A stretch of 64,000 nucleotides of DNA. Source: an uncultured Roseburia sp. Its GTDB lineage: Bacteria > Bacillota > Clostridia > Lachnospirales > Lachnospiraceae. Positions 27,653 through 64,000 of the stretch are shown in pieces (positions within the stretch are counted from its first letter, which is position 1; each line of letters opens with the position of its first letter). The translations under genes were made by a program, and so were the position numbers. Where the stretch lies: NCBI GenBank assembly GCA_947174805.1, contig CAMWKH010000005.1:1-64000 (forward strand), given 5' to 3'. Below the pieces are notes generated by a model, which was not told where the DNA came from, ran no database searches, and saw nothing but the letters and a program-made list of their open reading frames with translations.

Positions 27653-27684
27653 TTTCACCCTCCTTAAGCATTATAGTTTTCAGG

Positions 27685-28830
27685 CTATTGTATCTTTTTC
27701 GCCACAACAAAGAGTCTTCCGTCTTCTATGTAGCTGTTACAGGTAGATAATGTGAGGAATTTGTCATCCTCCGTCACCTCCTGTTTACTGTCGTAAACAG
27801 CGCACGCCCTGATAGTCTCAAAGTATGCTTCAAATTCTTCCGGGGACTTTGGCTGTATAAAATTGTAATATTTGTACTCCGGCTCATCCTGATATCCAAC
27901 CTTGGTGAGACAAACGTATATTACCTCATAAGTCCCTTTTTCATATATGCTGTCAAATTGTATCTGCTTATGCTTTGCCACAAAACCGTCATCCAAATAC
28001 TGTTTCAGGCTTCCAAACATGGCGCCGCTTCTCATGTTATGTCCGTAGACAATCAGATTCATGCTCTGGGTCACATCATCCCGGGAATCCAAAAACAATG
28101 TCCCGTTAATGTCTTCCTCCCCGTCTATGTTATTGTGGAGATAAAAATCGTCTACCGTCTGCATGACTGGCAAATCAATGGATGTTCCCTCTATCTTTAC
28201 CCATCCGATTAAATCCGGATACTTTTTGTGCAATTCTTTATATTCCGGCAAAATTTCCAAAGGCTTATCTATCTCCTGCATCTGAAGCTTAGACTCATCT
28301 CCCTGGGCCGAATTTTTTCTGGAGTCCTCCTGGTCGATTCGCTCCATAAACCAGCCCATTACCTGGTTATCCTTTTTTAAACTCTGCACTTCTTCTAATT
28401 TTCTTGTCGCCCTGTTCTCGGCAAATACGGACAGGCCGTACACCCCGAAACAAACCAGGGCAAGCACCACACAGACAACTCCCGCCAGCTTAAAGATGCT
28501 CTCTTTTTCCAACGGTCCGCCTGGGGTTTCCCTTTCAATCAAACTTGAAACATTCAACTTCGGCCAAAAACTTTTCTTTGAACCCTGTTTGATTAATTCC
28601 ATAGAATTATCTGCCACTCTGTCGGATATATCACAAAAAAAGGCATCTCCCAGTTCACTGTCAAAGGTGACATCTCCATTGCGGAGCAGCTGGTAGAGGA
28701 CCAGAGTGTCCTCTGCATCCTCTATGTCCAGCTGTTCTACAAGGTCTCTTATTTTTTTTAAATCTTTCAGGGCATTTTCCCATTCTTCCTTGGAATCAAA
28801 TTCATGCCTGCCAATTTTGTACTTTTCCAT
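27685..28830 (-). CDS. srtB: Class B sortase with cytoplasmic N-terminal region
   Basis: Membrane transpeptidase that anchors proteins to the wall. Residues 1-110 are charged and probably cytoplasmic, 114-137 form a membrane helix, and the sortase domain runs from about 190 to 381. Catalytic residues visible are His264 in VYGHNM, Cys364 in LSTCN and Arg372 in DGRLFVVAKK. Tyr-Lys-rich EYKYYNF fits the class B beta6-beta7 region. The 110-residue N-terminal extension is longer than usual for SrtB. It lies between the giant repeat protein and the LRR protein, 12 and 32 bp from them, so all three are one operon and at least the LRR protein is a likely substrate. Confidence 0.92.
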   Translation of the reverse strand: MEKYKIGRHEFDSKEEWENALKDLKKIRDLVEQLDIEDAEDTLVLYQLLRNGDVTFDSELGDAFFCDISDRVADNSMELIKQGSKKSFWPKLNVSSLIERETPGGPLEKESIFKLAGVVCVVLALVCFGVYGLSVFAENRATRKLEEVQSLKKDNQVMGWFMERIDQEDSRKNSAQGDESKLQMQEIDKPLEILPEYKELHKKYPDLIGWVKIEGTSIDLPVMQTVDDFYLHNNIDGEEDINGTLFLDSRDDVTQSMNLIVYGHNMRSGAMFGSLKQYLDDGFVAKHKQIQFDSIYEKGTYEVIYVCLTKVGYQDEPEYKYYNFIQPKSPEEFEAYFETIRACAVYDSKQEVTEDDKFLTLSTCNSYIEDGRLFVVAKKIQ

Positions 28831-28842
28831 AAAGGCAATCCC

Positions 28843-34800: not shown

Positions 34801-37800
34801 TCCCCTATAGTACCCATTTGCTGTTCCTGTAACAGTTACGGTTGCATCCCCCACAGCCGTATTGTTTTTATAATTTCCCAGTGTGTAAGCGGAACTGTCA
34901 ATCGCTTTGTTCCCTCCGCCTTTAAGCACATCCTGAAGGCTTACATCCTCGGGCTTAAGCTCTATGGCAGATCCCGTATAATATTGCTGGGGAATGGGGT
35001 TTGCCAACTCGATGGTATCCGCATAATCCTTCGCGGAATCTAAATCTTTATAGATAACAAATTCCGCCTTGTTGCTTCCGGTATAATTTCCCTTTCCGGT
35101 AATAACCACCGTCGCTTTTCCAGCCTCTTCATTATCCTGATAGCTCAAAGTATAATCCGTATCTTTTGTCAATACAATCGAAGTATCGCTTGCAAGTTTT
35201 ACCACAGGTTCCGGCGTTGCCGCCGCATCTTTACTGTATTCTGCGTCGCCGACAGGGTCAATGACCACATTGCTTCCGCTGATATCGCAGGGCCTTACTT
35301 CAATTGTCGCATAGTAGCTGCCTGTATAGTTCCCCCCTGCTTTTGCATCCCAAAAGACCATAACCTGATTGTTGCCTACTTCCTGCATGGTAATCTCAAA
35401 ATTGTCCTGGCAGAATTGCTGCAACGCCGAGTCTGTACCGGAAGCTTCAGAGAATACAATGTCATTGTGCTTTACATATGCGCCAAGATCCGCTACAGTG
35501 AGAGGTTTCCCCGCATAGACTGGTGTCTCGCATCCAAACTCCAGCACATTCCCCGTTTCCTGCTGAGGCTGACTCAAATCTCTTTCTTCAATTATATATT
35601 CCAAATCTGTCGTGCCTGCAAAGTTTCCAGTTCCTGTAACGGTGATGGTCGCCGTACCTGCATGATCGTCATTATTATATGTAACAGTGTAGTCTTTATC
35701 CTTAGCCAGCGTATAGTTAAATCTTCCGCTTTCGCTGTTTCCGGAATATTTCCCTGTGATACTAGGTTTAATAGAAGTGTCTAACGCTCCGTTAGTCATT
35801 TTTACATTAAAGAGCGCAGACCGCTCATAATCGTATACCAAGGAAGCTACATCCACAGGCGTGATTTCAAATGTAAGCTCCGCCATACCTCCGTATGAGC
35901 CGTCATCCGCACCTGTGATTTTAATGCTGGCCGTTCCAACTGTTTTGTTATTGCTGTATGCCAGAATATATTCTGATTTTGGCACTTCCGTACCGGCGGC
36001 ATCGGTGATAACAATCTCCGGTTTCACCTCGTTTCCGCCCAGATAAGGCGTACCGCTGGTCTCCACGTCAGGATTCTTAAAACCAATATTCATGGTGGCG
36101 ATATCAATTCCCGCTGTGGTCTGCACCGTTTTTGTCCCTGCAAAGTTCCCCTGGCCCTGTACAACAACATCCCAGACAGAAGGATCCAAGGTAGCGTTTA
36201 TTGTAACAGTATAATCTGTTCCCTTTGTGAGCACCTTCCCATCAAAAGTCACTTCCATCTTTATATTGCTGGCATCAAATCCCGAAACCTGCTTCGGCAC
36301 GCTTATTTTCACGTCGCTGTCAGCAACATTCACTGGGGATACATCATATTTCTGCGCTATTTTAACAGGATTGCCCGAAGAATCATCAGAAGCATAGGCA
36401 CCTTTTCCTGTGATAATAACATACTTATTTCCTGCGTCGGCGGTAGCCGCAACAGTTCCTGTCTCATCATTATAATATCCCTCAACGGTATAATCCCTGT
36501 CTTTTACCAGAGTTGTTGCCCCGTCCTTTACCACAATCTTCGGCTCGATCACCTTGCCTGTATAGCGGTAGTGGAAGTTATACAACGAAGATGCATCTGT
36601 CACCTTGATATCCGGATCGTTGATACTCTTTTTTATAGGAATGGAAATCCTTTTTACATCCTTATAGTTCCCCTGTCCAGTAATCTCAATATAAGCAGAA
36701 GCCCCTGCCACATTCAGCTTTCTTCCGGTAATGGTATAATCTTTCTCCGGCACAAGTTCATTGACCTGTGAAGTATATGGTGCATAAATAATCTTTATGT
36801 TTTTATTCTTTAAGTCATCTAATATCTTTGCCTGAAGGACGTCTTCCCCTGTTGCTGAAGCATTCCCAGAAGATGCCTGGAAATCATCAATTTCATCCTG
36901 GGTAGGAAGGGTATAAGAAACATTCTCCAGTCCCTCCAAGGTGACTCCGTTCAGAGAAGCAGGATCAATCCTAAATTCTACTTCCTTTGTTCCCAGATAT
37001 CCGTTTGCCAAAACTCCTGTAAGAACAACTTTTGCCGTCCCCGCATTGGTATTATTGTCATAGTCACTATTGAAATGTGTTCCTTCCACAAGCTTTGTGC
37101 TTCCGTCTGAAACCTCTACCTTAGGCCGTGCCGGCAATCCAGTATAAGGCTGGTTTGCTATACTGCTCACGGTAATATCCCTGCTGTCCATATCCTTGCA
37201 GACACGAAGTGTATGGGATGCGCTAATATTAGGGTCAGCCTTTAAAGTTGCGGTGATGGTTACCCTTCCCACCCCAGCGCCGCTAACCTGTCCGTTTTGG
37301 TTCACCGAAGCCACGCTGGTATCGGAAGAGGTCCATTCTACCTCTCTTTGGCCTGCAGTACTGGGAGTAAACACAAGCTGTAAGCCGGCCTGTTCCCCAA
37401 CTTTTATAGCCTCCGGAGAATCCCCTGCGAAACTGATTCCTGTAGGCAGTTCCTGGGAAGCCGCTTCCTGGGTCGTGATACGGATACATGCCGCTTTACC
37501 TCCCAGATTCCCCGCATTGGAACTGCTGCTGCCCTGTTCCCCGTTGCGCTGTGCCGCCAGAAAACAGATATTGTCCTTACCGGATATCTGCCCGCCGTTT
37601 TTATCCCTCCACACGGCATTGCTGAGAGTTAATTCAACACTTATCTCATCTCCCGCTCCCGCCTGTATGGTATCCCCTGTCAAATTTGTGCCAGGAATCT
37701 CAGCCCAGCCGCTTGGACTCTGCCGATATTTGCCTGAATCCGTGGCTGTTTTTCCCCCGCTTGAAACAGTAAGGATATAATCCGCTTCATGGATATGGTC

Positions 37801-38073
37801 TCCGCCCTCTCCATTGTTCACGCCAAATGAAATGAGCCCCACTTCCTGCACATGCATGCCGCTCACATCATTTCCGTCCATCACAAAGGTATTGGTGATG
37901 GTGGCTGTCTGGGCGCCGGTATCAATCACTTCCGTAAAATTGCCATTCTCAAGCTGATAAGAATGTCCCCCGCCCCCTGTGGAAGCTGCCCACAGGCTAA
38001 AATCCGGGGTGCTCCCGATCATACAGCAGACTAATACCCAAGCTAACACTCTCTTCACAACGTCCTTGTACAT
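28843..38073 (-). CDS. Giant repeat surface protein (3076 aa)
   Basis: Secreted protein with a signal peptide (about residues 1-30) and an N-terminal lectin-like or cohesin-like region (about 30-210). A Big-2 domain follows (about 215-300, VEWTSSDTSVASVNQNGQV). Then there are about 29 beta-sandwich repeats of 75-95 residues, each with YTG..I.P.V...G..L..G.DYTV.Y.NN...G.A...ITG.GNY.G...FxI. Two fibronectin-III domains (about 2880-3076) close it. The repeats resemble the MBG/YDG groups of bacterial Ig-like domains. An AAGGGAG site precedes the ATG. It ends in KQVKVK with no sortase signal, helix or wall-binding domain, so its retention on the cell is unexplained. Probably an adhesin or matrix protein. 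Confidence 0.85.
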   Translation of the reverse strand: MYKDVVKRVLAWVLVCCMIGSTPDFSLWAASTGGGGHSYQLENGNFTEVIDTGAQTATITNTFVMDGNDVSGMHVQEVGLISFGVNNGEGGDHIHEADYILTVSSGGKTATDSGKYRQSPSGWAEIPGTNLTGDTIQAGAGDEISVELTLSNAVWRDKNGGQISGKDNICFLAAQRNGEQGSSSSNAGNLGGKAACIRITTQEAASQELPTGISFAGDSPEAIKVGEQAGLQLVFTPSTAGQREVEWTSSDTSVASVNQNGQVSGAGVGRVTITATLKADPNISASHTLRVCKDMDSRDITVSSIANQPYTGLPARPKVEVSDGSTKLVEGTHFNSDYDNNTNAGTAKVVLTGVLANGYLGTKEVEFRIDPASLNGVTLEGLENVSYTLPTQDEIDDFQASSGNASATGEDVLQAKILDDLKNKNIKIIYAPYTSQVNELVPEKDYTITGRKLNVAGASAYIEITGQGNYKDVKRISIPIKKSINDPDIKVTDASSLYNFHYRYTGKVIEPKIVVKDGATTLVKDRDYTVEGYYNDETGTVAATADAGNKYVIITGKGAYASDDSSGNPVKIAQKYDVSPVNVADSDVKISVPKQVSGFDASNIKMEVTFDGKVLTKGTDYTVTINATLDPSVWDVVVQGQGNFAGTKTVQTTAGIDIATMNIGFKNPDVETSGTPYLGGNEVKPEIVITDAAGTEVPKSEYILAYSNNKTVGTASIKITGADDGSYGGMAELTFEITPVDVASLVYDYERSALFNVKMTNGALDTSIKPSITGKYSGNSESGRFNYTLAKDKDYTVTYNNDDHAGTATITVTGTGNFAGTTDLEYIIEERDLSQPQQETGNVLEFGCETPVYAGKPLTVADLGAYVKHNDIVFSEASGTDSALQQFCQDNFEITMQEVGNNQVMVFWDAKAGGNYTGSYYATIEVRPCDISGSNVVIDPVGDAEYSKDAAATPEPVVKLASDTSIVLTKDTDYTLSYQDNEEAGKATVVITGKGNYTGSNKAEFVIYKDLDSAKDYADTIELANPIPQQYYTGSAIELKPEDVSLQDVLKGGGNKAIDSSAYTLGNYKNNTAVGDATVTVTGTANGYYRGSRELTFTIATNSIANVDVTLDNTEFDFTGEKIEPNVTVSYNGATLTKDVDYTVRYQNNINAGSKETSGEAKAPQVMIFAKPGGNFAGVGGASGNMKTVYFTIYPKQLNRTNYEYNYPKAPDAIPGNNGSYDYSSVSLKDTDRNKQLSKGTDYMVDCKFVSAGAGPDDPDNGKLTFIGRGNYEGEISFDVLLEKQEIVQSDVTVTFSSGQTFVYTGKSVLEDPAFDLVVRKTDTGKLLVRGVDYKVIAADGYTNDQFTNCTGETVRFQIQFISNEFSGTLAEDRFNFSIAKKNIADSDVSVSIPNQAAGDGALEPKVTITYNGMTLTGGTDYTYEVFDNKPADIAAGKKPYVVITASAGDNKNYRGTRTEYFGIGKSIAAAEVTLSTSGYAVDSNGYYIYQADPITPDAVVKLEGKTLRPNVDYTLSYENNVDISDFSDPQNHKNAKAIVTGAGEYGGQKIVDFVITNKDAANSLGGSVTIPRNVTAEFTGSQVEPDLKIVYNRPGKQPYTLIPGKDYIMELSGDLVDVGDNKDATVDFRGNFMYSVPGEKPKISVTIVAKSFKDADDETDPGDIYFAWNGQQTEYNYEGQPITPGYTLVDLKRNLDGSYKKDGGSQNISSCYKLKSPKDVQAGEAADYTLEWRNNDRPGEAQLVLTGNKNYKSTERIIKTFKIKGTLNWATIEFAKPDFPNDNNRLDCFQYTGKRIQPELKIYFGNHANEPLLAGKGPNDIKADYWCEYPEDCINVGEGKTIIIHGMNAYADSGDFEIDYKIVPRDINDATVENLGSFAYTGENVKPVPKLYYGGVLLRPDLDYICTWEENCSAINDETKPYYEVRVTANPDGNFTGAYQNEITYKVGNSFSEANGISVELRKDSYKYTGDTIIPQIVVRDQKYTQPLEEGVDYKVAIDEDNPEYINAGKKTFRIYGLETNHPYVGDITKEFTITPIDLSAANATEIVMDEEGILKDTAQYKYQYFGREHRPEPSVNWMRDKDGIISKILLSQEDGDFTYTYQNNINAGTATITVGPGDVKSGGSEPNFTGSRDLNFTINPIHIDEDSSLLKVLDERNWIYTYTGKEVIPQVSIEYNGTVLTSGVDYEVTSGFTNITEDAKALIRFKGNYEGSVTRPFVIRRRSILSSGVDIALEGGNQYKYTGQSILPKVTITCDGTTLAAGTDYTINYGENHDVGLGTIDIQGINNFEQGTELTFDILPIDITSADVEVQVDSGVVTVAKPNAEPEFTVYWIKEDGTKTRVYAEGEGDPEGSVREIAYTYRYYNNTVIGEKGHLELTGKNNFTGVRDVEFDIGADINDYVHSVEWKDGEPSLEFNNAAQKPKVAVTLNESGIHYGLTEGNDYEVVYEPVSDNGDGECINAGDYKAYVKGIGKYAGRMGDLRYTIRQRDLSKVNFTIPDKAFTGSALKPDITARDEEIDLDLELVVPVGNQPVGKPNGYLATIPENLVNAGKVSIEIWAVEAGNYTGRLKKDFVITPKDVTDVTVKFDPSVIEEQKFTGTAIRPTFTITDTARNNAGFAVAAGTGDYVLKPEDCTITYTDNIYPGTAKITVEGRNNYGGKLIREFTISADLSMAEIAPIPAQPYTGQPVTPPLVVTLGGHKLVEGVDFIANYQNNVDRGIATVTITAAPLSKYTGEKTATFEIGRDLANAQVRSIADAFTYTGSPIVPQIAVVYGNDILREGVDYTVVFSNNVNVGAATVTVTAMGAYTGRIERTFDIVAKNVTRCGFGTVETKLYNRQATTQNLVVTDGGRTLVENQDYAISYINNTNPGTATIQISGLGNYGGVKTIRYNIEVKPMTNTKASATSNSVKLSWTAVDSAQGYAVYNDKNRLVGTTSSTSFTHKKLSSMKNYSYRVRPYVVSDGATYFGDFANTVKVTTTPPTPSKVKVKAGSKQAKISWAKIKGVTGYEVYRSTKKSSGYKKVTTIKKANTTSYTNKKLSKNKKYYFKVRAYKTVNGKKLYSSYSSPKQVKVK

Positions 38074-52848: not shown

Positions 52849-55695
52849 ATGTTTACCTTTATCATTACATTGGAGTTTTTTAGTATTGGGCTGATTTTAA
52901 CCGCCCTGCTTCTTCTGCTCAATGGAGACGGAGCCCACGAACAAAAATTGTTAATTTTCTGTATGTGCAGTTCACTGATACAGAATGTAGGATATCTATT
53001 GGAGCTGACTTCTCCCACAGTGGAAGCCGCCTTGATAGCGGTTACAGTGGAAAATGTCGGCTCTGCTTTTGTGGCACTGTGCTATTGCTGGTTTATCTAC
53101 AACTATTGTTATGCTGTTCCGCCAAAAACACTTTTAAGATTTCTTGGGGTCCTGAATATCTTCTTTTTTCCCACGATAATTTTTAACTGGAACGGACTAT
53201 TTTATCAGGACATCCAGTGGATGGCTGCGGCGGAAGGTTTTCACTATATCCGTATCACTTATGGCCCGCTGTACACGGTTTTTATGATCAGCCGCGTGGT
53301 CATTCCCTTTGCCCTTTGCATATACACCCTGAGCCGCGCCATATACCTGCGCTCGGACCAGGAGGTCAACCGTCAGTACTGGACGATTCTTGTCATCTCC
53401 ACTTTGCCTGTATTCATTCTGGCAGCATATGTATTTAAATTAACAAATATTTATGATCTCACCCCTATGACCCTGGGCATCTGCATGTCCATAGTGGTGA
53501 TTTTAGTGTGGAGCCGGCGAAACTATGATTTCCGCCATCTGGCCGCAGAAAAAGTCCTGGAAAGTTTAGGGGACGGGGTCATCGCACTGGACGACCATGA
53601 CCGGCTGGTAAGTTACAACAAGGCGGCTGCTAAAATTTTTACCCATCTGCCCTCCCATAAACTGGGAGAAAATATTCGGGTACTGGAGGATTTCCGGGAG
53701 GAAATGCTTGAAAAAGATGCGCCTCAGCGCTTTTCCCTCAACGACCGCCAATATGAAAGCCACAGTAAGCTGATAACAGATGAATACGACCGGAAGCAGG
53801 GCTGTGTAATTTTGATTTTAGACACCACGGATACCATAGCCTACATAAACGAAATTAAACGTGTGCGGCACCAGGCGGAAAAAGCCAGCATTGCCAAAAG
53901 TGAGTTTCTGGCAAATATGTCCCACGAAATCCGCACCCCTATGAATGCAATCATCGGGTTGAATGACATAATTATGGAAAAATCCAGTGATTCCCAGATT
54001 TATGACCACGCCAAAGATGTGCAGTCGGCGGCCAAAAACCTATTGACCATTATCAATGACATTTTGGATTTATCCAAGGTAGAGGCAGGAAAAATGGAAC
54101 TTGTGCCCACAAATTACCATTTAAAAACACTGGTAAACGAGGTGGCGGGCATGATGGATATGGCGGCCTCCCAGCGGGGACTGATTTTGAAATGTGAATG
54201 CGATGACACCCTTCCATGCTGCTACTGGGGTGATGAGGGACGAATCAAACAGATACTGATAAATATTTTAAACAATGCCATCAAATTTACCAAAAAAGGA
54301 TATGTCCATGCCAGCGTTACCGGAGCCCCCGGTAAAAATCAGGATGAGGAGTTCATCACCTTCCGTGTGCAGGACAGCGGATGCGGAATACAGGAAAAAG
54401 ACCTTGAAAAAATTTTCGAGGACTTTAAACAGGTGGATTCCAAGCGCAACCGAAGTGTTGAGGGCACCGGCCTGGGCCTGGCTATCGTCCGGCATTTAGT
54501 GGAACTAATGGACGGAAATATCTCCGTGGAAAGCGTCTACGGCAAGGGAACTGTGTTTAAAATCACGATTCCCCAAAAGATTGCAGACAGGCGTCCCATT
54601 TCCCAGATGCCCTGCCTCCCTGCAAAAACCCAGGATTTTATTGAAACTTTTACCGCCCCTGACGTAAAAGTGCTTGTTGTGGATGACAATGTCATTAACC
54701 GGAAAGTTGCCCGGGGCTTTTTGCAGGGCTACTGTTTTGATTTAACGGAAGCCGAAAGCGGGCCTCAGGCTATTGAACTGGTACGTCAGACCCAGTATGA
54801 CATTATATTTATGGATCACATGATGCCCATGATGGACGGCATTGAGGCGGTGGAAATTATCCGCAGGGATTGTGGAGAAAACGGGACGTCCCCCACGATT
54901 GTGGCATTGACCGCCAACGCTATGGAAGGGATGCGGGAGCGCTTTTTAGACTGCGGTTTTCAAGATTTTATCCCAAAACCCCTGGAAAGAAAGGCATTAA
55001 ATCATCTTCTGCTGCGCTGGATACCAAAGGAACGCCGGCAGCCTGGAGATACCGCCAGTAATTCTCCCCCCTTAAATCCCCACAGCTTCCGGATTGAGGG
55101 AGTGGACTTAAAGGCGGCCATGGAGTATTTTTCCGGTGACGAAACAGGATTTATTGAATTACTGGAACTCTACTATACAGACGGCAAACGCAAAATAGGC
55201 CTCCTGCACGGATTTTCACAGTCAGACTTAACACGCTATCAGGTAGAGGTACACGGGCTGAAAAGCGTCTCAGCCAATATCGGTGCCCTGCATGTTTCCG
55301 CCCTGGCCCGTGCCCAGGAAAATGCTGCCGCACAGGGGGACACAAAATTTATTGCAGAAGAGCTGCCCAATCTCTTAGCAGAATATGAAAAACTTTTAAA
55401 CAATATCGGACAGTTTTTAACTCAACACCAAAAGAACACCATAAAAGAGGAAAAGCTTCCCTGCCCCTCCCCCCGAAAATTGCAGGAACAGGCAGATAAA
55501 GCTTTAAGCCTGCTGGAAGATTTTCAATCAAAAGAATGTGCAGAGATAGTGGAGAACATGCTGCTTTACGCCCTGCCAGATGACACAGAGGACATTCTCA
55601 GGCAGATACAAACGCAGCTTAAGCTATATGAGGATGACGAAGCCGAAGAGCTGCTGCGCCAGCTTTCAGGCAGACTTGGAAAGGAGAAATCGTGA
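52849..55695 (+). CDS. 7TM hybrid histidine kinase with REC and HPt
   Basis: Membrane sensor kinase of 948 residues. Seven hydrophobic segments (about 1-220) resemble the histidine-kinase 7TM receptor module, then a PAS domain (about 230-335). HisKA follows with phospho-acceptor His359 in FLANMSHEIRTPMN, then HATPase (NILNNAIKFT and GTGLGLAIVRHLV), a receiver domain (about 610-735, VLVVDDNVINRK with acceptor Asp in IIFMDHMMPMMDG) and an HPt domain with EVHGLKSVSANIG near 802. All phosphorelay parts are in one chain except the final receiver, probably supplied by the next gene, which overlaps by 4 bp. Ligand unknown. Confidence 0.93.
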   Translation: MFTFIITLEFFSIGLILTALLLLLNGDGAHEQKLLIFCMCSSLIQNVGYLLELTSPTVEAALIAVTVENVGSAFVALCYCWFIYNYCYAVPPKTLLRFLGVLNIFFFPTIIFNWNGLFYQDIQWMAAAEGFHYIRITYGPLYTVFMISRVVIPFALCIYTLSRAIYLRSDQEVNRQYWTILVISTLPVFILAAYVFKLTNIYDLTPMTLGICMSIVVILVWSRRNYDFRHLAAEKVLESLGDGVIALDDHDRLVSYNKAAAKIFTHLPSHKLGENIRVLEDFREEMLEKDAPQRFSLNDRQYESHSKLITDEYDRKQGCVILILDTTDTIAYINEIKRVRHQAEKASIAKSEFLANMSHEIRTPMNAIIGLNDIIMEKSSDSQIYDHAKDVQSAAKNLLTIINDILDLSKVEAGKMELVPTNYHLKTLVNEVAGMMDMAASQRGLILKCECDDTLPCCYWGDEGRIKQILINILNNAIKFTKKGYVHASVTGAPGKNQDEEFITFRVQDSGCGIQEKDLEKIFEDFKQVDSKRNRSVEGTGLGLAIVRHLVELMDGNISVESVYGKGTVFKITIPQKIADRRPISQMPCLPAKTQDFIETFTAPDVKVLVVDDNVINRKVARGFLQGYCFDLTEAESGPQAIELVRQTQYDIIFMDHMMPMMDGIEAVEIIRRDCGENGTSPTIVALTANAMEGMRERFLDCGFQDFIPKPLERKALNHLLLRWIPKERRQPGDTASNSPPLNPHSFRIEGVDLKAAMEYFSGDETGFIELLELYYTDGKRKIGLLHGFSQSDLTRYQVEVHGLKSVSANIGALHVSALARAQENAAAQGDTKFIAEELPNLLAEYEKLLNNIGQFLTQHQKNTIKEEKLPCPSPRKLQEQADKALSLLEDFQSKECAEIVENMLLYALPDDTEDILRQIQTQLKLYEDDEAEELLRQLSGRLGKEKS

Positions 55696-56120
55696 CAATG
55701 ACGCAAACAAGTGGCAATAATTCCAAAAAACGGATTCTAGCAGTGGATGATGCGGCAATCACTCTGTCCAGGATAGCGGATACCCTTCAGAATGATTATG
55801 AGGTAATTACGGCAAATTCAGGGCCCAGGGCCTTAAAATACCTGGAAAAACAGAAACCTGACCTTATCTTGTTAGACATTAAAATGTCCCCTATGGACGG
55901 ACTTAAGACCTTAAAAGAGATACGCTCTATCAAAGACCGGGCCGACATTCCGGTGATTATGCTTACCGGCATGGAGGACAAAAAGTCTGTCCTTGACTCC
56001 GCCAAACTGGGAATTTGCGATTATGTGCTGAAACCTTTCGTGGAGGATGATTTGCTGTTCCGCATCCGCCGGGTCTTTGAATCGGGGGGAAATGCTTTGG
56101 GACAGGGATTTGTTAGATAA
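55692..56120 (+). CDS. Stand-alone receiver protein
   Basis: 142-residue response regulator with only a REC domain: acidic pair in ILAVDDAAIT, phospho-acceptor Asp in LILLDIKMSPMDG near 62, Thr in VIMLTGMED and Lys in YVLKPF. No output domain. The GTG start overlaps the kinase stop and follows AAGGAG by 5 nt. CheY-like, so it probably acts by protein binding (motor, enzyme or another kinase) as the last step of the relay. Confidence 0.93.
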   Translation: MTMTQTSGNNSKKRILAVDDAAITLSRIADTLQNDYEVITANSGPRALKYLEKQKPDLILLDIKMSPMDGLKTLKEIRSIKDRADIPVIMLTGMEDKKSVLDSAKLGICDYVLKPFVEDDLLFRIRRVFESGGNALGQGFVR

Positions 56121-56128
56121 ATTTATTA

Positions 56129-56154
56129 ATGCGGAGCAGGTAACTGCTCCGCAT
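56129..56154. terminator. Bidirectional terminator
   Basis: ATGCGGAGCAG-GTAA-CTGCTCCGCAT perfect 11-bp stem between the convergent receiver gene and the 220-aa gene. U-tracts on both sides are short. Confidence 0.75.
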
Positions 56155-56162
56155 TTACAAAC

Positions 56163-56825
56163 CTATTCACTTTCTTTCTCTTTTGTCATTTCAAGGAAAT
56201 TATCAAGCATGGCATCCTGCAGCTGATTACAAATCCTTTTGACAGTCTCCTGGGCATCCGCCCTTCCAAATGACAGCCCGGTTCCGCCTAAAATTTTTCC
56301 TGCTCCCCACATACGGCGTATCTGTTCTTCTGTGGAGGGCTTTTGCCTTGACATTGTGATATGGTGTAATATCCTGCCATTATCATCATAAAAAGTAACC
56401 TGGGTATACATCATACCTAATGATCTTGTATCATTTTCAATAGAAGGATACATTTTCTCTGTGCGCTTAATCAAAGAAATCATCCCCTGCTCATATTCCG
56501 GATCTTCCTGCATCTTACGGATCACAGAAATATCTAGGTTAATGCTGCAATGTCCCACTCCGCCAAAATTCTCTCCGATTTGATTCATACTACCGTTATA
56601 GCCAAGACATATTTTATCGGGATTTTTTCTGGATGTTTCTTCATCTTCTAACCGAAAAGATATATTGGGAAACTGCTCACAAAACTTCTTATAATAACTT
56701 AATGGGTCAGACGGCACAGATTCTTCTTTCTTTTCTGTTTTTGCGGAAAAAACAGCCTGGTTTTTATCTGCCTTTTTCCCGTAAAAATTGTAATCTATAT
56801 TTCTGTTTAAGACTCCTACTTCCAT
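56163..56825 (-). CDS. Unknown 220-aa protein (DUF6033-like), copy 1
   Basis: Soluble protein with no signal peptide or membrane helix. Residues 42-175 hold the best-defined part: LSYYKKFCEQFPNISFRLEDEE, then CLGYNGSMNQIGENFGG, HCSINLDISVIRKMQ and TEEQIRRMWGAGKI. The C-terminus is helical and charged. A GGAGGG site precedes the ATG. It differs from copy 2 mainly in the first 35 residues and at SFGRADAQE. From memory it resembles the Lachnospiraceae family DUF6033; this is unverified and no function is known. It always follows the peptide gene here, so it may act with the peptide. Confidence 0.8.
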   Translation of the reverse strand: MEVGVLNRNIDYNFYGKKADKNQAVFSAKTEKKEESVPSDPLSYYKKFCEQFPNISFRLEDEETSRKNPDKICLGYNGSMNQIGENFGGVGHCSINLDISVIRKMQEDPEYEQGMISLIKRTEKMYPSIENDTRSLGMMYTQVTFYDDNGRILHHITMSRQKPSTEEQIRRMWGAGKILGGTGLSFGRADAQETVKRICNQLQDAMLDNFLEMTKEKESE

Positions 56826-56874
56826 ATTTCATTCCCTCCTGAATTACAAGATTTTTTATCTTATTTCGTTTTTT

Positions 56875-57027
56875 TTACTGAATGGTCTGAATAGGAATTA
56901 AAGAAATATTCTGTATAGACCCTGTCTGGAGTGCTGAAACCTTTACAATCATTGCTGTTGCACAAAAAATAATGCAAGTCATAATGCATAACATGATTGA
57001 CATTGTTCTCTTGATTCTTAATTTCAT
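56875..57027 (-). CDS. 50-aa secreted-peptide precursor, copy 1
   Basis: Short frame: basic start MKLRIKRT, a hydrophobic core (about residues 9-28) and a likely signal-peptidase site after VKVSA, leaving an 18-residue product LQTGSIQNISLIPIQTIQ. It stops with TAA before the 220-aa gene. The start lacks a strong ribosome site. Preservation of the same peptide in copy 2 (changes C22Y, V30G, I46F) supports a real gene. It could be a signalling peptide, a bacteriocin-like peptide or a transporter accessory; the cleavage site and role are inferred. Confidence 0.6.
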   Translation of the reverse strand: MKLRIKRTMSIMLCIMTCIIFCATAMIVKVSALQTGSIQNISLIPIQTIQ

Positions 57028-57154
57028 ACTGGTTCATCTTTTCTTCAAATTTTACTATTTACCTATACATACTACAAATAGCACTGAAAATGGATATCCA
57101 GGCAAAATTAACAAGATAAATGGTAAAATTACACAATCCTCCCCCTGTTTTCCA

Positions 57155-59062
57155 TCACTCATCCCTGATAATCTCCATCTTTGTACTCATAAAACTTATC
57201 CACTGGGCAAGCATACAGCACCCCAGCACAAACAATGTGGAAATCAGGCTTGTAATCAAAACTATCGGGACAGACAAAGGATAATGTTTGTTTAACATCA
57301 GGAAAAACACCGCCTCTCCCAACACCATAGTTACAAACACCACCGAAAAAGATGCAAGCCACGCAATCATCAGGTATTCCAAATATACCACCCAAAAGGC
57401 CTTTTTCCGGGACGCCCCGTAGACCTGATACAAATAAAGCTCCTTTTTCCTTTCCAGCAGATCACTTCTGACCATAGAATAGAAAAATACCCCTGTCACC
57501 AAAATCAGCATTGCGCCTGCCGCCACAACAACGCTTAGATAGTCCGACATCAGCTCAATCAGGGCGTCTGCCAGCTGGGAAGCTGTACCCACGGTGCACT
57601 CCTCATCTTCTAATAATGAAATCAGATTTTTCTCTTCCCTCCGGCTCAAATCCAGCAAAAACACGGTATTCCAGGTATCGTCCAGCTCCAGGTTAAAATC
57701 CTGCCTGTTTATTTTTATATTGTAAGGCATCAAAGACAACCACTGTCTCTCCTGAATATTTTCCCAGTAGGTTAAATCCCTGCCAAAAATACCGCTGTCT
57801 GTTCCAAGTTTTAGGCTGCATACAGAAGCAAACCTGTTTTCGGCGGCAAAACAGCCTTCTGGAATCTGAAAATGTCTGTTGCCGTCTGTCTGTCTCTCCA
57901 GAATAAAGGCCCAAAAATAGTCATCTGCCGAAATACCCTTCAGTTCTAAATAATTCATGCATTTAAAATATCCCATGGTGTATAAGCAGCCATTGTTCTC
58001 CAAAATACTCTGTATAGTTCTGCCTTCATCCAAACCACGGACTTCAACCAATGTAGAATACCCCAGGTTATCGCGGTAAGAATCCCGCAGGATTCCACTG
58101 AAATTAAACATAACATTCATTACAAAACAGATAATCACCGCCCCCACCGATATGGTGGCTGCCAGCACCGCGTCCCGCCTGCTCCTGGTACATAAAAAAC
58201 GGTAACTGATATGGGAAATTTTGTCCAGATTTTTCCCGCCCCCATTTCTATGCTTCATTTTCCTATGAAACATAAGATAAAACACCCCGGAGAGAAGGGA
58301 AAGTACAACAAAACATACAAGCAGTATGATATGAATAAAACTTCTGTTTTCAAAAAACAAAGCCACCGCCAAAAGGTATAACAGGACAATTTCCAATGTG
58401 ACAAAAGACCGGTAGGTTTCTTTTTCCTTTTCTGCTTTCCTGCCGTACAACATGACAGCAATAGGCTTCTCATAAATATAAAGACCGGAAATAAAACTTC
58501 CAAAAAAAGATATGACAGCCAAAAGCAGGATCACCACCAGAAGTACTTTTAGCATTTCCAGAGAAAACAGATTCAAAGCAACCTGGGTACTGCACAGCTT
58601 TTTTGACAGATGACGGAAGAGAAAAAAACCTCCCGCATCCCCAATTATCCCACCTAAAACGCCAAAAGAAATTCCTTCCGCCAGTGCTCTGAAAAAAACA
58701 TCTTTTTTCTGCATTCCAAAAATCCGAAGCATGGCATGGCTTTTCTCCATAGAGATATTCTGGAAAAACAGTATGCTGGTACATCCCCAAATCACAATCA
58801 AAATACTGCACAGGGAAAACACTGTCAAAACCTTTTCCATGGTATCCAAAATGGCAAACCTTCCCTCTTCCACAAAATTTTCCGGCCTTTGATACTCCTC
58901 TGCAATCTTTTGCATCTGTACCTGAAAATAATCCTCATTGCTGTTTTGAATCAGAAAAGTACAGGAAAGGATTGCCCCTGCAAATGCAAAAATAAAAACA
59001 AGCACAAGAAATCTCATTTTCTGATTCCTGTAAAATTTTAAGAAAAAAGCCAGTTTTCCCAT
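57155..59062 (-). CDS. FtsX-like ABC permease A
   Basis: 635-residue membrane protein with two FtsX-type permease regions: helices near 20-40, 85-105, 140-165 and 195-215, with GMQKKDVFFRALAEGISFG after the second. A large extracytoplasmic domain (about 310-510) follows, then the C-terminal helices with DLLERKKELYLYQVYGASRKKAF. The start at 59062 has GGAGGT 6 nt upstream; a frame 40 codons longer runs through the operator region and is rejected. Paralogue of permease B but clearly diverged. It has no ATPase gene beside it and may share the one at 60372-61031. Such permeases export or sense peptides, lipids or lantibiotics. Confidence 0.88.
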   Translation of the reverse strand: MGKLAFFLKFYRNQKMRFLVLVFIFAFAGAILSCTFLIQNSNEDYFQVQMQKIAEEYQRPENFVEEGRFAILDTMEKVLTVFSLCSILIVIWGCTSILFFQNISMEKSHAMLRIFGMQKKDVFFRALAEGISFGVLGGIIGDAGGFFLFRHLSKKLCSTQVALNLFSLEMLKVLLVVILLLAVISFFGSFISGLYIYEKPIAVMLYGRKAEKEKETYRSFVTLEIVLLYLLAVALFFENRSFIHIILLVCFVVLSLLSGVFYLMFHRKMKHRNGGGKNLDKISHISYRFLCTRSRRDAVLAATISVGAVIICFVMNVMFNFSGILRDSYRDNLGYSTLVEVRGLDEGRTIQSILENNGCLYTMGYFKCMNYLELKGISADDYFWAFILERQTDGNRHFQIPEGCFAAENRFASVCSLKLGTDSGIFGRDLTYWENIQERQWLSLMPYNIKINRQDFNLELDDTWNTVFLLDLSRREEKNLISLLEDEECTVGTASQLADALIELMSDYLSVVVAAGAMLILVTGVFFYSMVRSDLLERKKELYLYQVYGASRKKAFWVVYLEYLMIAWLASFSVVFVTMVLGEAVFFLMLNKHYPLSVPIVLITSLISTLFVLGCCMLAQWISFMSTKMEIIRDE

Positions 59063-59149
59063 ACAGCTACCTCCGCTTATTTGATAATAGTAAGTAACTG
59101 TATTGTAGAAAACCGGCTGTATATATTCCAGGGATTTAGGGTTGCGTTT

Positions 59150-59178
59150 TGTCAATTTGGGCGGGACTCTGTCAATTT
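59150..59178 (-). promoter_or_regulatory. Direct repeat AAATTGACA before permease A
   Basis: Two exact AAATTGACA copies (59178-59170 and 59158-59150) 20 bp apart, about two helical turns, just downstream of the predicted start. One further copy lies before permease B (63028-63036). A possible repressor or response-regulator site. Confidence 0.5.
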
Positions 59179-59201
59179 CCACGGGCGGAGGCGATTTTTC
59201 T

Positions 59202-59229
59202 ATTATAGCATTTACTACAGCATATACAA
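59202..59229 (-). promoter_or_regulatory. Promoter of permease A
   Basis: Minus-strand TTGTAT, 16-nt spacer, TATAAT. Confidence 0.65.
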
Positions 59230-59253
59230 CAGTGCATTGCAGATAAAAGAAGA

Positions 59254-59287
59254 ATCCCTCGACTGTACGACATTACAGTCGGGGGAT
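59254..59287 (-). terminator. Terminator after module copy 2
   Basis: Minus-strand ATCCCCCGACTGT, 8-nt loop, ACAGTCGAGGGAT with one mismatch, then TCTTCTTTT. Separates the permease B operon from permease A. Confidence 0.8.
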
Positions 59288-59352
59288 TTATTCTTTGCCT
59301 GCATGGATTTCTCCACATTTCTTTGCCTAATGGAATTATAGCATATGTAAAT

Positions 59353-60015
59353 TTATTCACTTTCTTTCTCTTTTGTCATTTCAAGGAAATTATCCAGCAT
59401 GGCATCCTGCAGCTGATTACAAATCCTTTTTACTGTCTCCTGGGCATCCGTCCCTCCAAAAGACAGCCCGGTTCCGCCTAAAATTTTTCCCGCTCCCCAC
59501 ATACGGCGTATCTGTTCTTCTGTGGAGGGCTTTTGCCTTGACATTGTGATATGGTGTAATATCCTGCCATTATCATCATAAAAAGTAACCTGGGTATACA
59601 TCATACCTAATGATCTTGTATCATTTTCAATAGAAGGATACATTTTCTCTGTGCGCTTAATCAAAGAAATCATCCCCTGCTCATATTCCGGATCTTCCTG
59701 CATCTTACGGATCACAGAAATATCTAGGTTAATGCTGCAATGTCCCACTCCGCCAAAATTCTCTCCGATTTGATTCATACTACCGTTATAGCCAAGACAT
59801 ATTTTATCGGGATTTTTTCTGGATGTTTCTTCATCTTCTAACCGAAAAGATATATTGGGAAACTGCTCACAAAACTTCTTATAATAACTTAATGGGTCAG
59901 ACGGCACAGATTCATCTTTTTTATCTGTTTTTGCGGAAAAAACAGACTGGTTTTTATCTGCCTTTTTCCCGTATATACTGTAATTTATATTTCTGTTTAA
60001 GGCTCCCACTTCCAT
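59353..60015 (-). CDS. Unknown 220-aa protein (DUF6033-like), copy 2
   Basis: Same length as copy 1, with N-terminal changes V5A, D11N, N13S, F14I, A24S, E31D and E34D and a C-terminal RA to GT change; residues 36 to about 175 are identical. GGAGGG precedes the ATG. Here the frame of the preceding peptide gene runs 62 bases into it. No motif gives a function. Confidence 0.8.
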   Translation of the reverse strand: MEVGALNRNINYSIYGKKADKNQSVFSAKTDKKDESVPSDPLSYYKKFCEQFPNISFRLEDEETSRKNPDKICLGYNGSMNQIGENFGGVGHCSINLDISVIRKMQEDPEYEQGMISLIKRTEKMYPSIENDTRSLGMMYTQVTFYDDNGRILHHITMSRQKPSTEEQIRRMWGAGKILGGTGLSFGGTDAQETVKRICNQLQDAMLDNFLEMTKEKESE

Positions 60016-60217
60016 ATTTCATTCCCTCCTGAATAGCAAATTTTTTTATCTTATTTCGTTTTTTTAACTGAATGGTCTGAAAAGGAATTAAAGAAATATT
60101 CTGTATAGACCCTGTCTGGAGTGCTGAACCCTTTACAATCATTGCTGTTGCATAAAAAATAATGCAAGTCATAATGCACAACATGATTGACATTGTTCTC
60201 TTGATTCTTAATTTCAT
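59954..60217 (-). CDS. Secreted-peptide precursor, copy 2, stop lost
   Basis: Residues 1-50 match the copy 1 peptide (likely product LQTGSIQNISLIPFQTIQ), but the TAA stop has become TTA by one base change. Translation would continue 37 more residues, through a Lys-rich stretch and into the start of the 220-aa gene in another frame. This could inactivate the peptide, create a longer one or couple translation of the next gene. Recent decay is the simplest view. Confidence 0.5.
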   Translation of the reverse strand: MKLRIKRTMSIMLCIMTCIIFYATAMIVKGSALQTGSIQNISLIPFQTIQLKKRNKIKKFAIQEGMKYGSGSLKQKYKLQYIREKGR

Positions 60218-60371
60218 ACTGGTTCATCTTTTCTTCAAATTTTACTATTTACCTATACATACTACAAATAGCACTGAAAATGGATATCCAGGCAAAATTA
60301 ACAAGATAAATGGTAAAAATAGATATATAACCAGATTCAGAATTTCCTGCTTTCCCCTTTTCCTCCAAATT

Positions 60372-61031
60372 TTACTGCACAATCCGGCCATTCTCCATCT
60401 TAATAATTCTATCGCACTGGTTTGCAATCCCCATATCGTGGGTGACCAACAGCACTGTCAACCCCTGGTCATGGGCGCATTTTACCAAAAATTTTATCAC
60501 GCTGTTTCCGGTCTGGGAATCCAGCGCCCCGGTAGGCTCATCCGCATAGAGAATATTAGGTTTATTAATCAATGCCCGGACAATAGCCGTCCTCTGCTGT
60601 TCTCCGCCGGACATCTGTTTAGGGTAAAGCCTGCGCTGTTTCTCAAGCCCTACGCTTTTCATCATTTTTTTCACCCTGCCGCTCTCGGCTTTTTTATCGG
60701 AAAAAACCAGGGGCATCCGGATATTTTCCTCACAGGTCAGTTCGGGAATCAGGTGATAATTCTGAAACAGAATCCCGATATTTTCATTGCGGAACTTTTC
60801 CTGCTCCTTCCTGTCCATGTCGTAGTAATCCTTTTTGTCCAGATATACTTTTCCCCCGGAGGGCTCATCAATCCCGCTTAAGATAGAGAGCAGGGTGCTC
60901 TTCCCGCACCCGCTTTTCCCTACAATGGCTGTTATAGTATTTTTATCCAATTCAAAAGAAATATCCCTTAAAATGTGTTCCGTTTTATCCCCAACCTCAA
61001 TACTCTTACTGATATGTTCTGCTTTAATCAT
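60372..61031 (-). CDS. ABC ATPase of FtsX-type transporter (MacB/LolD class)
   Basis: 219-residue ATPase with Walker A VGKSGCGKSTLLS near residue 37, Q-loop LFQNYHL, signature MSGGEQQRTAIVRAL near 141, Walker B ILYADEPTGALD and H-loop LLVTHDMGIA. This class powers FtsX-like permeases and works by mechanotransmission rather than a classic channel. It lies 23 bp after permease B, so the order is permease then ATPase, the reverse of bceAB. A single ATPase may serve both permeases. Confidence 0.93.
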   Translation of the reverse strand: MIKAEHISKSIEVGDKTEHILRDISFELDKNTITAIVGKSGCGKSTLLSILSGIDEPSGGKVYLDKKDYYDMDRKEQEKFRNENIGILFQNYHLIPELTCEENIRMPLVFSDKKAESGRVKKMMKSVGLEKQRRLYPKQMSGGEQQRTAIVRALINKPNILYADEPTGALDSQTGNSVIKFLVKCAHDQGLTVLLVTHDMGIANQCDRIIKMENGRIVQ

Positions 61032-61054
61032 ATGAAACTCCTTTCTGTCACCTG

Positions 61055-62956
61055 TTATTCGTCACGAATAATTTCCATTTTTTCACCTATAAAGTTTATC
61101 CATTGGGCAATATAACAGCAGGCCAGCACGAAAAAAGTCACCATGATACTGGTTATCAAAATCACCGGAATTGACATAGGGTAATGTTTATTTAAAAGAA
61201 AGGAAAAAATGCCCTCACCTGCTATCATAGCCACCAAAACCACACTAAAAGACGCAATCCAAGCAATCATGAGATATTCCAAAAATACAACCCAAAAAGC
61301 TTTTCTTCTGGAAGCCCCATATATCTGATATAAATACATCTCTCTCTTTCTTGCCAAAAGGTCGCTGCGCACCATTGAATAAAAAAAAGTTCCCGTTACC
61401 AGAATGAGCATAATCCCTACAGCTGAAATGACACTTAAATAATCCGACAATAATTCCACTATCATATCTACAAACGATGATGCTGTTTCTATGGAACAAA
61501 CTTCCCCCTCTAACAGTAATTCTATATCTTTTTCTTCTTCTCTGCTGATATCCAAAAGAAATACTGTTTCCCAAGTATCATCTAATGGCAGTTCCCAATC
61601 ACTTCTATTGACTTTAAAATTGTAAGTTACCGGAGTAAATACCTGCTTCTCACTTACAAATTCAGAGCAAATTAACTCTCTTCCTAAAACATTTGTTTTT
61701 TCTCCTCTCTCTAAACCACACAAATATGCAAAATAATTTTCTGCAATAAAAGTTCCTTCCGGAATCCTAAAACGATTATTGCCATCCGTCTGTTTCCCTA
61801 TCAGCATTGCGTCAAAGGCATCTGATTCTCCACTGGCAGTAGATACACCTATATCAGCATACTTCATATTTTTACAATAAACAGTTGTATAGAAATATCT
61901 GTTTTTATCTAACAGTTCCCCTATCCACTCTCCGCTCTGGATACCCGAAACCTCTACTGCAGTTGAAAAACCCACATTATCACTGTAAGAAGCCCGCAGT
62001 ACCCCTCCAAAATCCAATATAAAATTAAGTGCAATACATATGATAATTGCCCCTACCGACACCGTAGCTGCCAGAAGTGCATCTCTTTTGTTTCTAGTAC
62101 ACAAAAAACGCCAGCTTATGCCTGAAACTTTATCTAAAACCTTATTTCTTTCATTGCGTTTTTTTCTCCTTCCAGAAAACACGAGATAGAATACTGCAAA
62201 CAGCATACCAAGTATCACTCCGCAGATAACAAGCATAATATTCATATATTTCCAGTTTTTTAAAAACAGCACAGTCATAGCAGCATATAACAGCACGAAT
62301 TCAAGTATTCCATAATAGAAACACGTCTTTTTTTCTCTATTTGTATCCCTCCCGTAAAACATTGTCACAACGGGAGTTTCATAGATAAAAAGCCCTGAGA
62401 CAAAACTCCCAAAAAATGCAATCAATGTAAGAATTCCCATAACTATAAGCAATATCCCTGCTGTTTCCATAGAAAATATAGAAATATATTCTTCTATATT
62501 ACACAATTTTCTGGACAAATGGACAAACAATCCATACCCGCCTACACAACCCAAAAAACTTCCTGACAGCCCGAAGGAAATCCCTTCTACACATGCCCGG
62601 ATAAAAACATCTTTCTTTTGCATTCCGAAAATCCTAAGCATGGCAAAGCTTTTCTGCATGGAAATATTCTGAAAGAAAAGAATACTGGTGCATCCCCAGA
62701 CAACAATAAGAACACTGCCCAAAGAAAAAATCGTCATTACTTTTTCCATAATTATAAAAACTCCATCAAAGCCTTCATCGATTACGTTCTTATCATTCAA
62801 TACCTTCATCTGCACATTTGCATAATCATCATTGTTACTTTGCACCAAAAGGGAACAGGAAAGGATTGCCCCTGCAAATGTAAAAATGAAAATCAGAATT
62901 AGAAACCGAATCTTCTGAGTTCTGTAAAACTTTAGAAAAAATGCCAATTTACTCAC
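61055..62956 (-). CDS. FtsX-like ABC permease B
   Basis: 633-residue paralogue of permease A with the same topology: N-terminal helices, GMQKKDVFIRACVEGISFG, a large extracytoplasmic domain (about 310-505) and the C-terminal DLLARKREMYLYQIYGASRRKAF. The GTG start (62956) follows GGAGGT by 7 nt and gives MSKLAFFLKFY, aligned with MGKLAFFLKFY of permease A; an in-frame ATG five codons earlier overlaps the site. The extracytoplasmic domains differ most between the paralogues, which suggests different ligands. Confidence 0.88.
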   Translation of the reverse strand: MSKLAFFLKFYRTQKIRFLILIFIFTFAGAILSCSLLVQSNNDDYANVQMKVLNDKNVIDEGFDGVFIIMEKVMTIFSLGSVLIVVWGCTSILFFQNISMQKSFAMLRIFGMQKKDVFIRACVEGISFGLSGSFLGCVGGYGLFVHLSRKLCNIEEYISIFSMETAGILLIVMGILTLIAFFGSFVSGLFIYETPVVTMFYGRDTNREKKTCFYYGILEFVLLYAAMTVLFLKNWKYMNIMLVICGVILGMLFAVFYLVFSGRRKKRNERNKVLDKVSGISWRFLCTRNKRDALLAATVSVGAIIICIALNFILDFGGVLRASYSDNVGFSTAVEVSGIQSGEWIGELLDKNRYFYTTVYCKNMKYADIGVSTASGESDAFDAMLIGKQTDGNNRFRIPEGTFIAENYFAYLCGLERGEKTNVLGRELICSEFVSEKQVFTPVTYNFKVNRSDWELPLDDTWETVFLLDISREEEKDIELLLEGEVCSIETASSFVDMIVELLSDYLSVISAVGIMLILVTGTFFYSMVRSDLLARKREMYLYQIYGASRRKAFWVVFLEYLMIAWIASFSVVLVAMIAGEGIFSFLLNKHYPMSIPVILITSIMVTFFVLACCYIAQWINFIGEKMEIIRDE

Positions 62957-63027
62957 ACTGTCTACCTCCATGTCTCAAAAACATATAACGGAAACTCTTT
63001 AAAATCCAGCGGTTACCGTTTGCATTT

Positions 63028-63036
63028 TGTCAATTT
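63028..63036 (-). promoter_or_regulatory. Single AAATTGACA site before permease B
   Basis: AAATTGACAAAATGCAA here matches AAATTGACAAAACGCAA before permease A. The second repeat copy is missing. No clear promoter was identified for permease B. Confidence 0.35.
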
Positions 63037-63055
63037 TAACGGACGGATACGGAAT

Positions 63056-64000
63056 TTATTTTATACCAGACAAATTCCGATATATCTGGCAGGATTTTTC
63101 CAAATCCTCCCCCCTTCCTTCCGCTACCACCCTTCCCTCTTCTAAAACCAAAATCTCGTCGGACGGTTCAATTTCTGACAACCGATGGGTAACAAAAATA
63201 ACGATTTTATGTATACTTCTCAATATTTTCATTATTTGCTGTTCATTCTCGCCATCCAAATCTGATGTCACCTCATCTAATAAATAGATATCTGCATTTA
63301 AAACCAACCCTCGCGCAATAGCCAAACACTGAATCTGCCCTCCGGAAAAATGCGTTCCATCCTCTCCCAATTCCGTATCATACTGCTTTGGCAAACTCAT
63401 AATATGCTCATGCATGCCAACCATCTGACATACCCTGGATACCTCGTCAAAACTTATCTGCCCATCTATCAACCTGAAGTTTTCTATGATACTCATATTA
63501 AAAAAAAAGGGCTTCTGCCTGATATACACTATTTTACTGTACAAATTCTCCGCTTCCAACTCCCTGATATCAATATCATTAATCAAAATGCTCCCCTCAT
63601 CCGGTGCATAATAGTTCATCAGCATATCTAACAGGGTGCTTTTCCCGCTTCCGTTATGTCCCACAATCACCTGAAATGAAGGCACTGTATACCGAAAATT
63701 AACATTCTTTAACACATCCTTTTCCATACCTTTATACTTAAATTTTAAGTTTTTTACCTCCAGGGATTGAACAGGTACATCCATTTCATTCTTAAAAAAC
63801 TGTGGTTTATGCAAATCTTCCTGCAAAAAACACATGATTTTATCCACAGATACAATAATCACTGCAAACTGCGCCTGAAACGTAATTAATTCCTGAACTA
63901 AAACAGAAAATCTCGAAGCATACGAATTAAAAGAATAGTACATTCCCACTGTCAGTTTTCCTATAATAATCTGCCAACAAGAAATCAGCAATATAATAAC
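63056..64000 (-). CDS. ABC exporter (membrane-ATPase fusion), partial
   Basis: C-terminal part of a peptide- or lantibiotic-exporter-type ABC protein. The frame stays open to the window edge, so the N-terminal membrane helices lie outside. The last transmembrane segment (LTVGMYYSFNSYASRFS region) is followed by the ATPase: Walker [14 protein letters not shown], signature FSGGQIQCLAIARG (FSGGQ for LSGGQ), Walker B IYLLDEVTSDLD and H-loop FVTHRLSEIE. Its gene ends just before the permease B leader. The neighbouring peptide genes make it a candidate exporter, although those peptides already carry signal sequences. Confidence 0.88.
   Translation of the reverse strand, partial: VIILLISCWQIIIGKLTVGMYYSFNSYASRFSVLVQELITFQAQFAVIIVSVDKIMCFLQEDLHKPQFFKNEMDVPVQSLEVKNLKFKYKGMEKDVLKNVNFRYTVPSFQVIVGHNGSGKSTLLDMLMNYYAPDEGSILINDIDIRELEAENLYSKIVYIRQKPFFFNMSIIENFRLIDGQISFDEVSRVCQMVGMHEHIMSLPKQYDTELGEDGTHFSGGQIQCLAIARGLVLNADIYLLDEVTSDLDGENEQQIMKILRSIHKIVIFVTHRLSEIEPSDEILVLEEGRVVAEGRGEDLEKSCQIYRNLSGIK

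Follow-up and report, generated by a model that had tools for sequence, protein, structure and literature searches.

Is a tight, one-strand cluster of genes necessarily a single system? The question is raised by positions 56163-64000 of the 64,000-nt stretch of DNA analyzed here (the window), in which a preliminary description had recognized five gene types on one strand and proposed that they form an undescribed five-part system. The genes themselves were confirmed, with two 220-aa open reading frames (ORFs), two FtsX permeases, one ABC ATPase and a partial ABC exporter, all encoded on the minus strand. From position 64000 downward, the order is exporter, FtsX permease (61055-62956), ATPase, unit 2, FtsX permease (57155-59062) and unit 1, the two units being copies of one duplicated segment. 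The conserved single system, on the other hand, was not borne out by neighbor surveys and by the different histories of the pieces. Our best overall explanation, which we hold to be probable, is that the region combines three unrelated pieces into a patchwork and is not one system; it comprises a remnant gene pair, BceAB-like permeases and a decayed CXXX-repeat RiPP cluster.

Organization of the locus

The features of the region are listed below by position in the window.

56151..57131, minus: duplicated unit, copy 1 (leader, 58-aa frame and DUF6033 gene), 981 bp; 97% identical to 59341-60321
56163..56825, minus: DUF6033 protein, 220 aa (unit 1); Pfam PF19498, 44.3 bits vs cut-off of 25
56861..57037, minus: 58-aa frame, copy 1, putative remnant or short form of the secreted Cys-rich family; tblastn 9e-6, profile, six-frame scan
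56875..57027, minus: 50-aa ORF, read earlier as signal-peptide precursor; lengths 50/87/64 in three copies
57155..59062, minus: FtsX-type permease, 635 aa (ORF open to 59182); PF02687 in both halves, start from homologues
59141..59159, minus: promoter-proximal motif CAAATTGACAAAACGCAAC, upstream of the 635-aa permease; motif search in 15 genomes
59219..59245, minus: 96% identical 27-bp repeat of the upstream cobalamin gene's 3′ end (contig C5:65696-65722); rearrangement scar
59341..60321, minus: duplicated unit, copy 2; 97% identity to copy 1
59353..60015, minus: DUF6033 protein, 220 aa (unit 2); PF19498, 43.9 bits, 96% identical to unit 1
60051..60227, minus: 58-aa frame, copy 2; match to the secreted Cys-rich family as for copy 1
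60372..61031, minus: ABC ATPase of LolD/MacB type (219 aa), pairing with the 633-aa permease; PF00005 5e-37
61055..62956, minus: FtsX-type permease, 633 aa (638 aa from an upstream ATG at 62971); PF02687 twice
63019..63037, minus: motif AAAATTGACAAAATGCAAA, upstream of the 633-aa permease; motif search in 15 genomes
63056..64000, minus: ABC exporter, C-terminal part (543 aa readable, on to C5:64687); N-terminal frameshift at an A9 run

The contig (C5) runs past the window, and beyond the exporter come a small modification gene of the CXXX-repeat type, the truncated gene of a CXXX maturase and then cobalamin genes. Elsewhere in the window, on the minus strand at 25763-38073, a 3076-aa protein with a Big_2 domain is encoded with a sortase and a BspA-type leucine-rich-repeat protein adjacent, likely a surface-protein locus.

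The duplicated unit and its short reading frames

It had been stated that the peptide and 220-aa genes always travel together. However, the two units (56151-57131 and 59341-60321) have sharp ends and are 97% identical over 981 bp, and their DUF6033 proteins are 96% identical to each other. The statement had therefore been based on a single duplicated segment, which provides no independent evidence that the genes within it belong together.

The 50-aa ORF also did not prove to be a signal-peptide precursor. Its frame reads 50 aa in unit 1, 87 aa in unit 2 and 64 aa in the third copy (L024), the stop codon being lost in the other copies, and no homologue was found outside the unit copies. Since its length is not kept and it has no relatives, we rejected the 50-aa peptide as a conserved precursor; the ORF is probably an out-of-frame reading. 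The overlapping 58-aa frame (56861-57037) keeps its length in the three copies (58, 58 and 56 aa). Between the two window copies, it shows 3 synonymous and 2 non-synonymous (conservative) changes, and the 50-aa frame shows 1 synonymous and 3 non-synonymous changes plus the loss of the stop codon. Furthermore, the 58-aa product matches the C-terminus of a secreted Cys-rich family (LHYFLCNSNDCKGFSTPDRVYTEYF vs KYYFICSSASCSNLSFNDRKYEVYY; tblastn 9e-6) over a short segment of 38 residues, and its profile score exceeded those of all 2000 shuffles. Because the 58-aa ORF contains neither a signal peptide nor the first Cys pairs, it is most simply read as a truncated remnant of a secreted Cys-rich gene.

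Rearrangement, transfer and the decayed RiPP cluster

Comparison with Roseburia sp. 1XD42-69 (G001; L024/L066) revealed a block of about 5.5 kb, from C5:60103 to about 65575, that is 100% identical, whereas identity in the flanking genes falls to about 70-95%, with a mean of around 83%. Because complete identity stands in a background of about 83%, the block with the ATPase, permease, exporter and RiPP genes was recently transferred horizontally between species. G001 has neither the second permease nor unit 1, and the DUF6033 gene that is left there breaks off after about codon 138. A third, partial copy of the unit leader (97 bp; L025 10553-10648, L066 14682-14779) coincides exactly with the point at which the maturase gene is broken. 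The 27-bp copy of the cobalamin gene end, which resembles a target-site or rearrangement scar and has its counterpart at L025 10696-10722, lies between the units. Both the leader copy and the 27-bp repeat are scars of repeated rearrangement. Searches of phages and plasmids with the 220-aa gene, and of plasmids with the permease, gave no matches.

The gene described earlier as a partial peptide-type ABC exporter was confirmed as such, the window holding the C-terminal 314 aa of an MsbA/peptide-type exporter that runs off its end. The readable part extends to C5:64687 and is identical in G001; the reading frame of the N-terminus is broken at nine consecutive A's (L025 9650-9790), where transcriptional slippage or phase variation could restore the frame, or the gene could be a pseudogene. 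As in CXXX-repeat clusters, both TIGR04116 (60.4 bits, cut-off 50) and TIGR04119 (152.9 bits, cut-off 150) are matched next to the exporter. In contrast to such clusters, however, the maturase matched by TIGR04119 is truncated, a 155-aa fragment that scores above the cut-off but covers profile positions 55-209 with the N-terminal part missing, and the start of the exporter is frameshifted. We therefore read this piece as the decayed remains of a CXXX-repeat RiPP cluster, in which the maturase is truncated and the exporter frameshifted, accompanied by a small modification protein.

DUF6033 is restricted to flagellated genomes

The 220-aa proteins match Pfam DUF6033 (PF19498) over residues 40-169, score above the cut-off and form a divergent, agr-linked clade of that family. 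Within the genus, 13 of 15 genomes carry DUF6033, at as many as 24 copies per genome; across the bacterial family, it was detected in 136 of the 397 genomes sampled. In the literature searched, there was no text naming the family, and the same was true for "CXXX repeat peptide"; nor does any DUF figure in a revision of motility genes in Roseburia/Eubacterium. The AlphaFold model of DUF6033 (3 sequences) was too poor to interpret (pLDDT 46), a fold search with this model yielded no matches, and neither did a PDB sequence search with single proteins.

Flagellar genes were present in all 136 DUF6033-positive genomes of the 397-genome sample. FlhA was detected in 134 of these, as opposed to 209 of 397 overall, and in all 15 genomes of the own genus. 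The two FlhA-less genomes (G248 and G285) each have four flagellin-domain matches, and FlhA is therefore probably missing from their assemblies rather than from the genomes. In a set of 329 genomes, containing almost one genome per genus and constituting the sole phylogenetic correction of the test, FlhA was found in 98% of the DUF6033 genomes vs 28% of the rest; Cas1, used as a control in the same set, showed no flagellar link (49% vs 53%, p=0.50). Within the N-terminal 40 residues of 91 DUF6033 proteins, Ser, Thr, Asn and Gln together account for 35%, compared with 20.5% for the remaining genes at these loci, and a hydrophobic stretch fit for a Sec signal was seen in none of the 91. These N-termini resemble flagellar export cargo, from which we infer that the proteins are exported. 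The likeliest role of DUF6033 would be that of a cargo of, or an accessory to, the flagellar export apparatus.

The perfect co-occurrence with flagella fits export and regulation alike, and at one locus (L108) FliS is encoded among four DUF6033 genes. Both observations would suit an intracellular regulator or chaperone linked to flagella or motility, which is not exported and whose N-terminus is a flexible linker. L108 is, however, the only locus with FliS; besides this case, flagellar families are not regular neighbors, and none is among the commonest 25 immediate neighbors of DUF6033. Up to 24 divergent copies per genome, as well as N-termini rich in Ser, Thr, Asn and Gln and poor in hydrophobic residues, fit exported cargo better than a single regulator, and we regard the intracellular role as possible but rather unlikely. 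A cargo of, or an accessory to, flagellar export thus stays our preferred reading of DUF6033.

Several families without a significant Pfam match but with polar, tail-like N-termini (L023 9003-9890, L060 7955-10023, L061 2081-5270, L101 4906-5883 and L153 4448-5881) recur near DUF6033, agr or FtsX permeases and are possibly further exported proteins of a similar kind.

The closest relatives lie beside agr genes and a secreted Cys-rich partner

In a tree, the window DUF6033 proteins group with those of L023, L024, L067, L068, L069 and L070 (support of 0.64-1.0, with one near-zero internal node), a clade of five genomes once the window genome and G001 are left out. AgrB and a GHKL kinase are encoded beside DUF6033 in four of these five genomes (L023, L067, L068 and L069), accompanied by a LytTR regulator at L067-L069. 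AgrD was recognized (TIGR04223) in L023 and L068, which thereby resemble known agr loci (AgrB, AgrD, AgrC, AgrA), and none was recognized in L067 and L069. The window itself differs, as no agr genes were found at its locus or in the 21 kb read upstream of the window. The signaling circuit that had been considered plausible thus finds a partial counterpart in the agr genes of the closest relatives but none in the window. Since the enrichment of GHKL kinases next to all DUF6033 genes was weak (p=0.07), we claim the agr link for the clade of the window only.

A secreted Cys-rich protein of ~120 aa with several Cys pairs adjoins DUF6033 in L067 (8023-8406), L068 (7740-8111) and L069 (about 10786-11139), so that the pair stands beside agr-type genes in three other genera. 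The genes in L067 and L068 encode proteins of 127 aa and 123 aa, respectively, and lie upstream of DUF6033. When a profile of the three proteins was run over all loci in six frames, it matched the three genes themselves and, beyond them, only the sequence preceding DUF6033 in the window and in G001. In genome G007 (L023), agr and DUF6033 are present; the same scan recognized no secreted partner there, and the DUF6033 homology starts about 15 bp before the start codon, with no partner upstream. The 220-aa protein therefore does have a secreted partner at its closest relatives, as had been proposed, but that partner is a different, Cys-rich protein of ~120 aa and not the 50-aa peptide.

Taken together, the arrangement behind the unit is probably an agr-linked pair, in which a gene for a Sec-secreted, Cys-rich (zinc-ribbon-like) protein is followed by the DUF6033 gene. 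In the intact relatives, DUF6033 would be made under agr quorum control. The unit in the window is probably a truncated, tandem-duplicated remnant of this pair, with DUF6033 intact and only the C-terminal end of the secreted gene left.

Two agr-type loci stand in tandem at about 1000-6994 of L023, in one genome. A GHKL kinase, mostly with a LytTR regulator, is also encoded near non-core DUF6033 paralogues in L150, L151, L153, L154, L155, L145, L146, L124, L125 and L130.

FtsX-type permeases and their upstream motif

The two FtsX permeases are 57% identical, with PF02687 in both halves of each, and their starts were revised to near 59062 and 62956, beside good ribosome-binding sites. The permease had been described together with its ATPase; this pairing stands for the 633-aa permease but not for the 635-aa permease, which has no adjacent ATPase. 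Full-length relatives were found in four genomes of the genus and hardly at all in the rest of the bacterial family, and elsewhere they occur with or without an ATPase and without DUF6033.

In the 638-aa reading, hydropathy analysis revealed ten hydrophobic segments with a gap of ~190 aa between the 7th and 8th (318 to 512). The large extracellular domain of BceB is located between TM7 and TM8. The layout of ten segments with a large loop is that described for BceB (PMC7038271), the structure of which is available (PMC10314905), and a permease of ~640 aa with one large external loop and a separate ATPase is likewise a feature of BceAB (PMC7038271, PMC10314905). Unlike BceAB, the window permeases have no BceRS-type two-component system beside them and have a private promoter motif. 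A hybrid kinase and a receiver are encoded nearby at 52849-56120, but convergently, and both also occur in G001, where the second permease is missing.

A conserved stretch, CCGTYAAAATTGACAAArYGCAACC, precedes most relatives of these permeases. Its 19-mer AAAATTGACANARYGCAAC, with at most one mismatch, occurs 8 times in 15 genomes, each time upstream of this permease subfamily or its ATPase-permease genes, while the reversed control pattern gave two chance matches. We read the motif as a putative dedicated operator just upstream of a weak promoter. The permease genes would be switched on by a regulator binding this motif, and the permeases may work like BceAB, a likeness in function and not membership of that group, by pulling a cell-wall-active peptide off its lipid target and so protecting the cell. 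The earlier comparison with FtsX-type peptide transport thus finds support in the BceB-like topology, but the five-gene self-sensing or immunity system built on it does not.

Alternative explanations for the cluster

Several observations could make the FtsX/ATPase genes lipoprotein or membrane-stress transporters of the Lol/YbbAP type instead of peptide resistance genes. The ATPase scores best with LolD (TIGR02211, 220 bits, under its cut-off), a PDB profile search gave only weak LolC and YbbP matches and no sequence match to BceB, and YbbP ranked first in a fold search. The same fold search placed BceB next, its query being an AlphaFold model (4 sequences) too poor to interpret (pLDDT 49), and ten segments with a single large loop following the seventh make up a BceB-like topology. 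Moreover, Lol is a Gram-negative pathway, and a Lol/YbbAP role seems to us a minority prospect. We also considered it unlikely that the FtsX/ATPase pair served the adjacent CXXX-repeat RiPP as its immunity module and was kept after the RiPP decayed. The two are adjacent on the same strand and were co-transferred in one 100% identical block; however, no CXXX maturase match was seen at the further FtsX loci of the genus that were read (L023 and L059-L065), and the subfamily occurs without the RiPP. BceAB-like protection remains our preferred role for the permeases.

Finally, the genes could form one integrated system, in which the FtsX and ABC genes export and sense a locally encoded secreted peptide and confer resistance to it, with DUF6033 as its partner. 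Tight clustering on one strand, the position of both units downstream of FtsX/ATPase genes and the combination of DUF6033 with two FtsX copies in L023 speak for such a system. Nevertheless, the peptide frame has not been conserved, the FtsX genes are preceded by a promoter motif of their own, and the exporter cluster is decayed. DUF6033 is widespread in the bacterial family and the FtsX relatives are nearly confined to the genus, each being found elsewhere without the other; in a neighbor survey of ~90 DUF6033 ORFs, this FtsX lay within 5 kb only in the window and its two nearest relatives. Both outcomes that the preliminary description had named as contradicting its proposal, namely DUF6033 occurring mostly apart from FtsX and a peptide frame that is not kept, were thus observed. 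Because of these surveys and the separate histories of the pieces, we rejected the cluster as one operon or system and consider an integrated system very improbable. Anti-phage defense was rejected as well, as PADLOC gave no match for DUF6033 or FtsX, and the ATPases matched generic ATPase profiles only.

Implications

The patchwork reading of the window carries a caution, namely, that a striking five-gene cluster may arise where mobile, duplicated and decaying pieces meet. The feature deserving attention is the 220-aa gene and not the cluster, as it belongs to a flagellum-restricted, multicopy family with cargo-like N-termini. New here are the link of DUF6033 to the flagellum and the agr-linked pair of a secreted Cys-rich protein and DUF6033. 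To our knowledge, little beyond flagellin is known as a product of flagellar export in gut commensals. As a tentative idea, DUF6033 might be a large multicopy family exported via the flagellar apparatus of these bacteria, one clade of which is deployed by agr with a Sec-secreted Cys-rich protein; the two would form a secreted pair using two routes and serving signaling or competition, of which the window carries a duplicated remnant. The agr-linked pair is a compact locus for testing the quorum control of such proteins. If the flagellum link is true, a common uncharacterized family, present in about one-third of the sampled genomes and in up to 24 copies, would gain a testable function.
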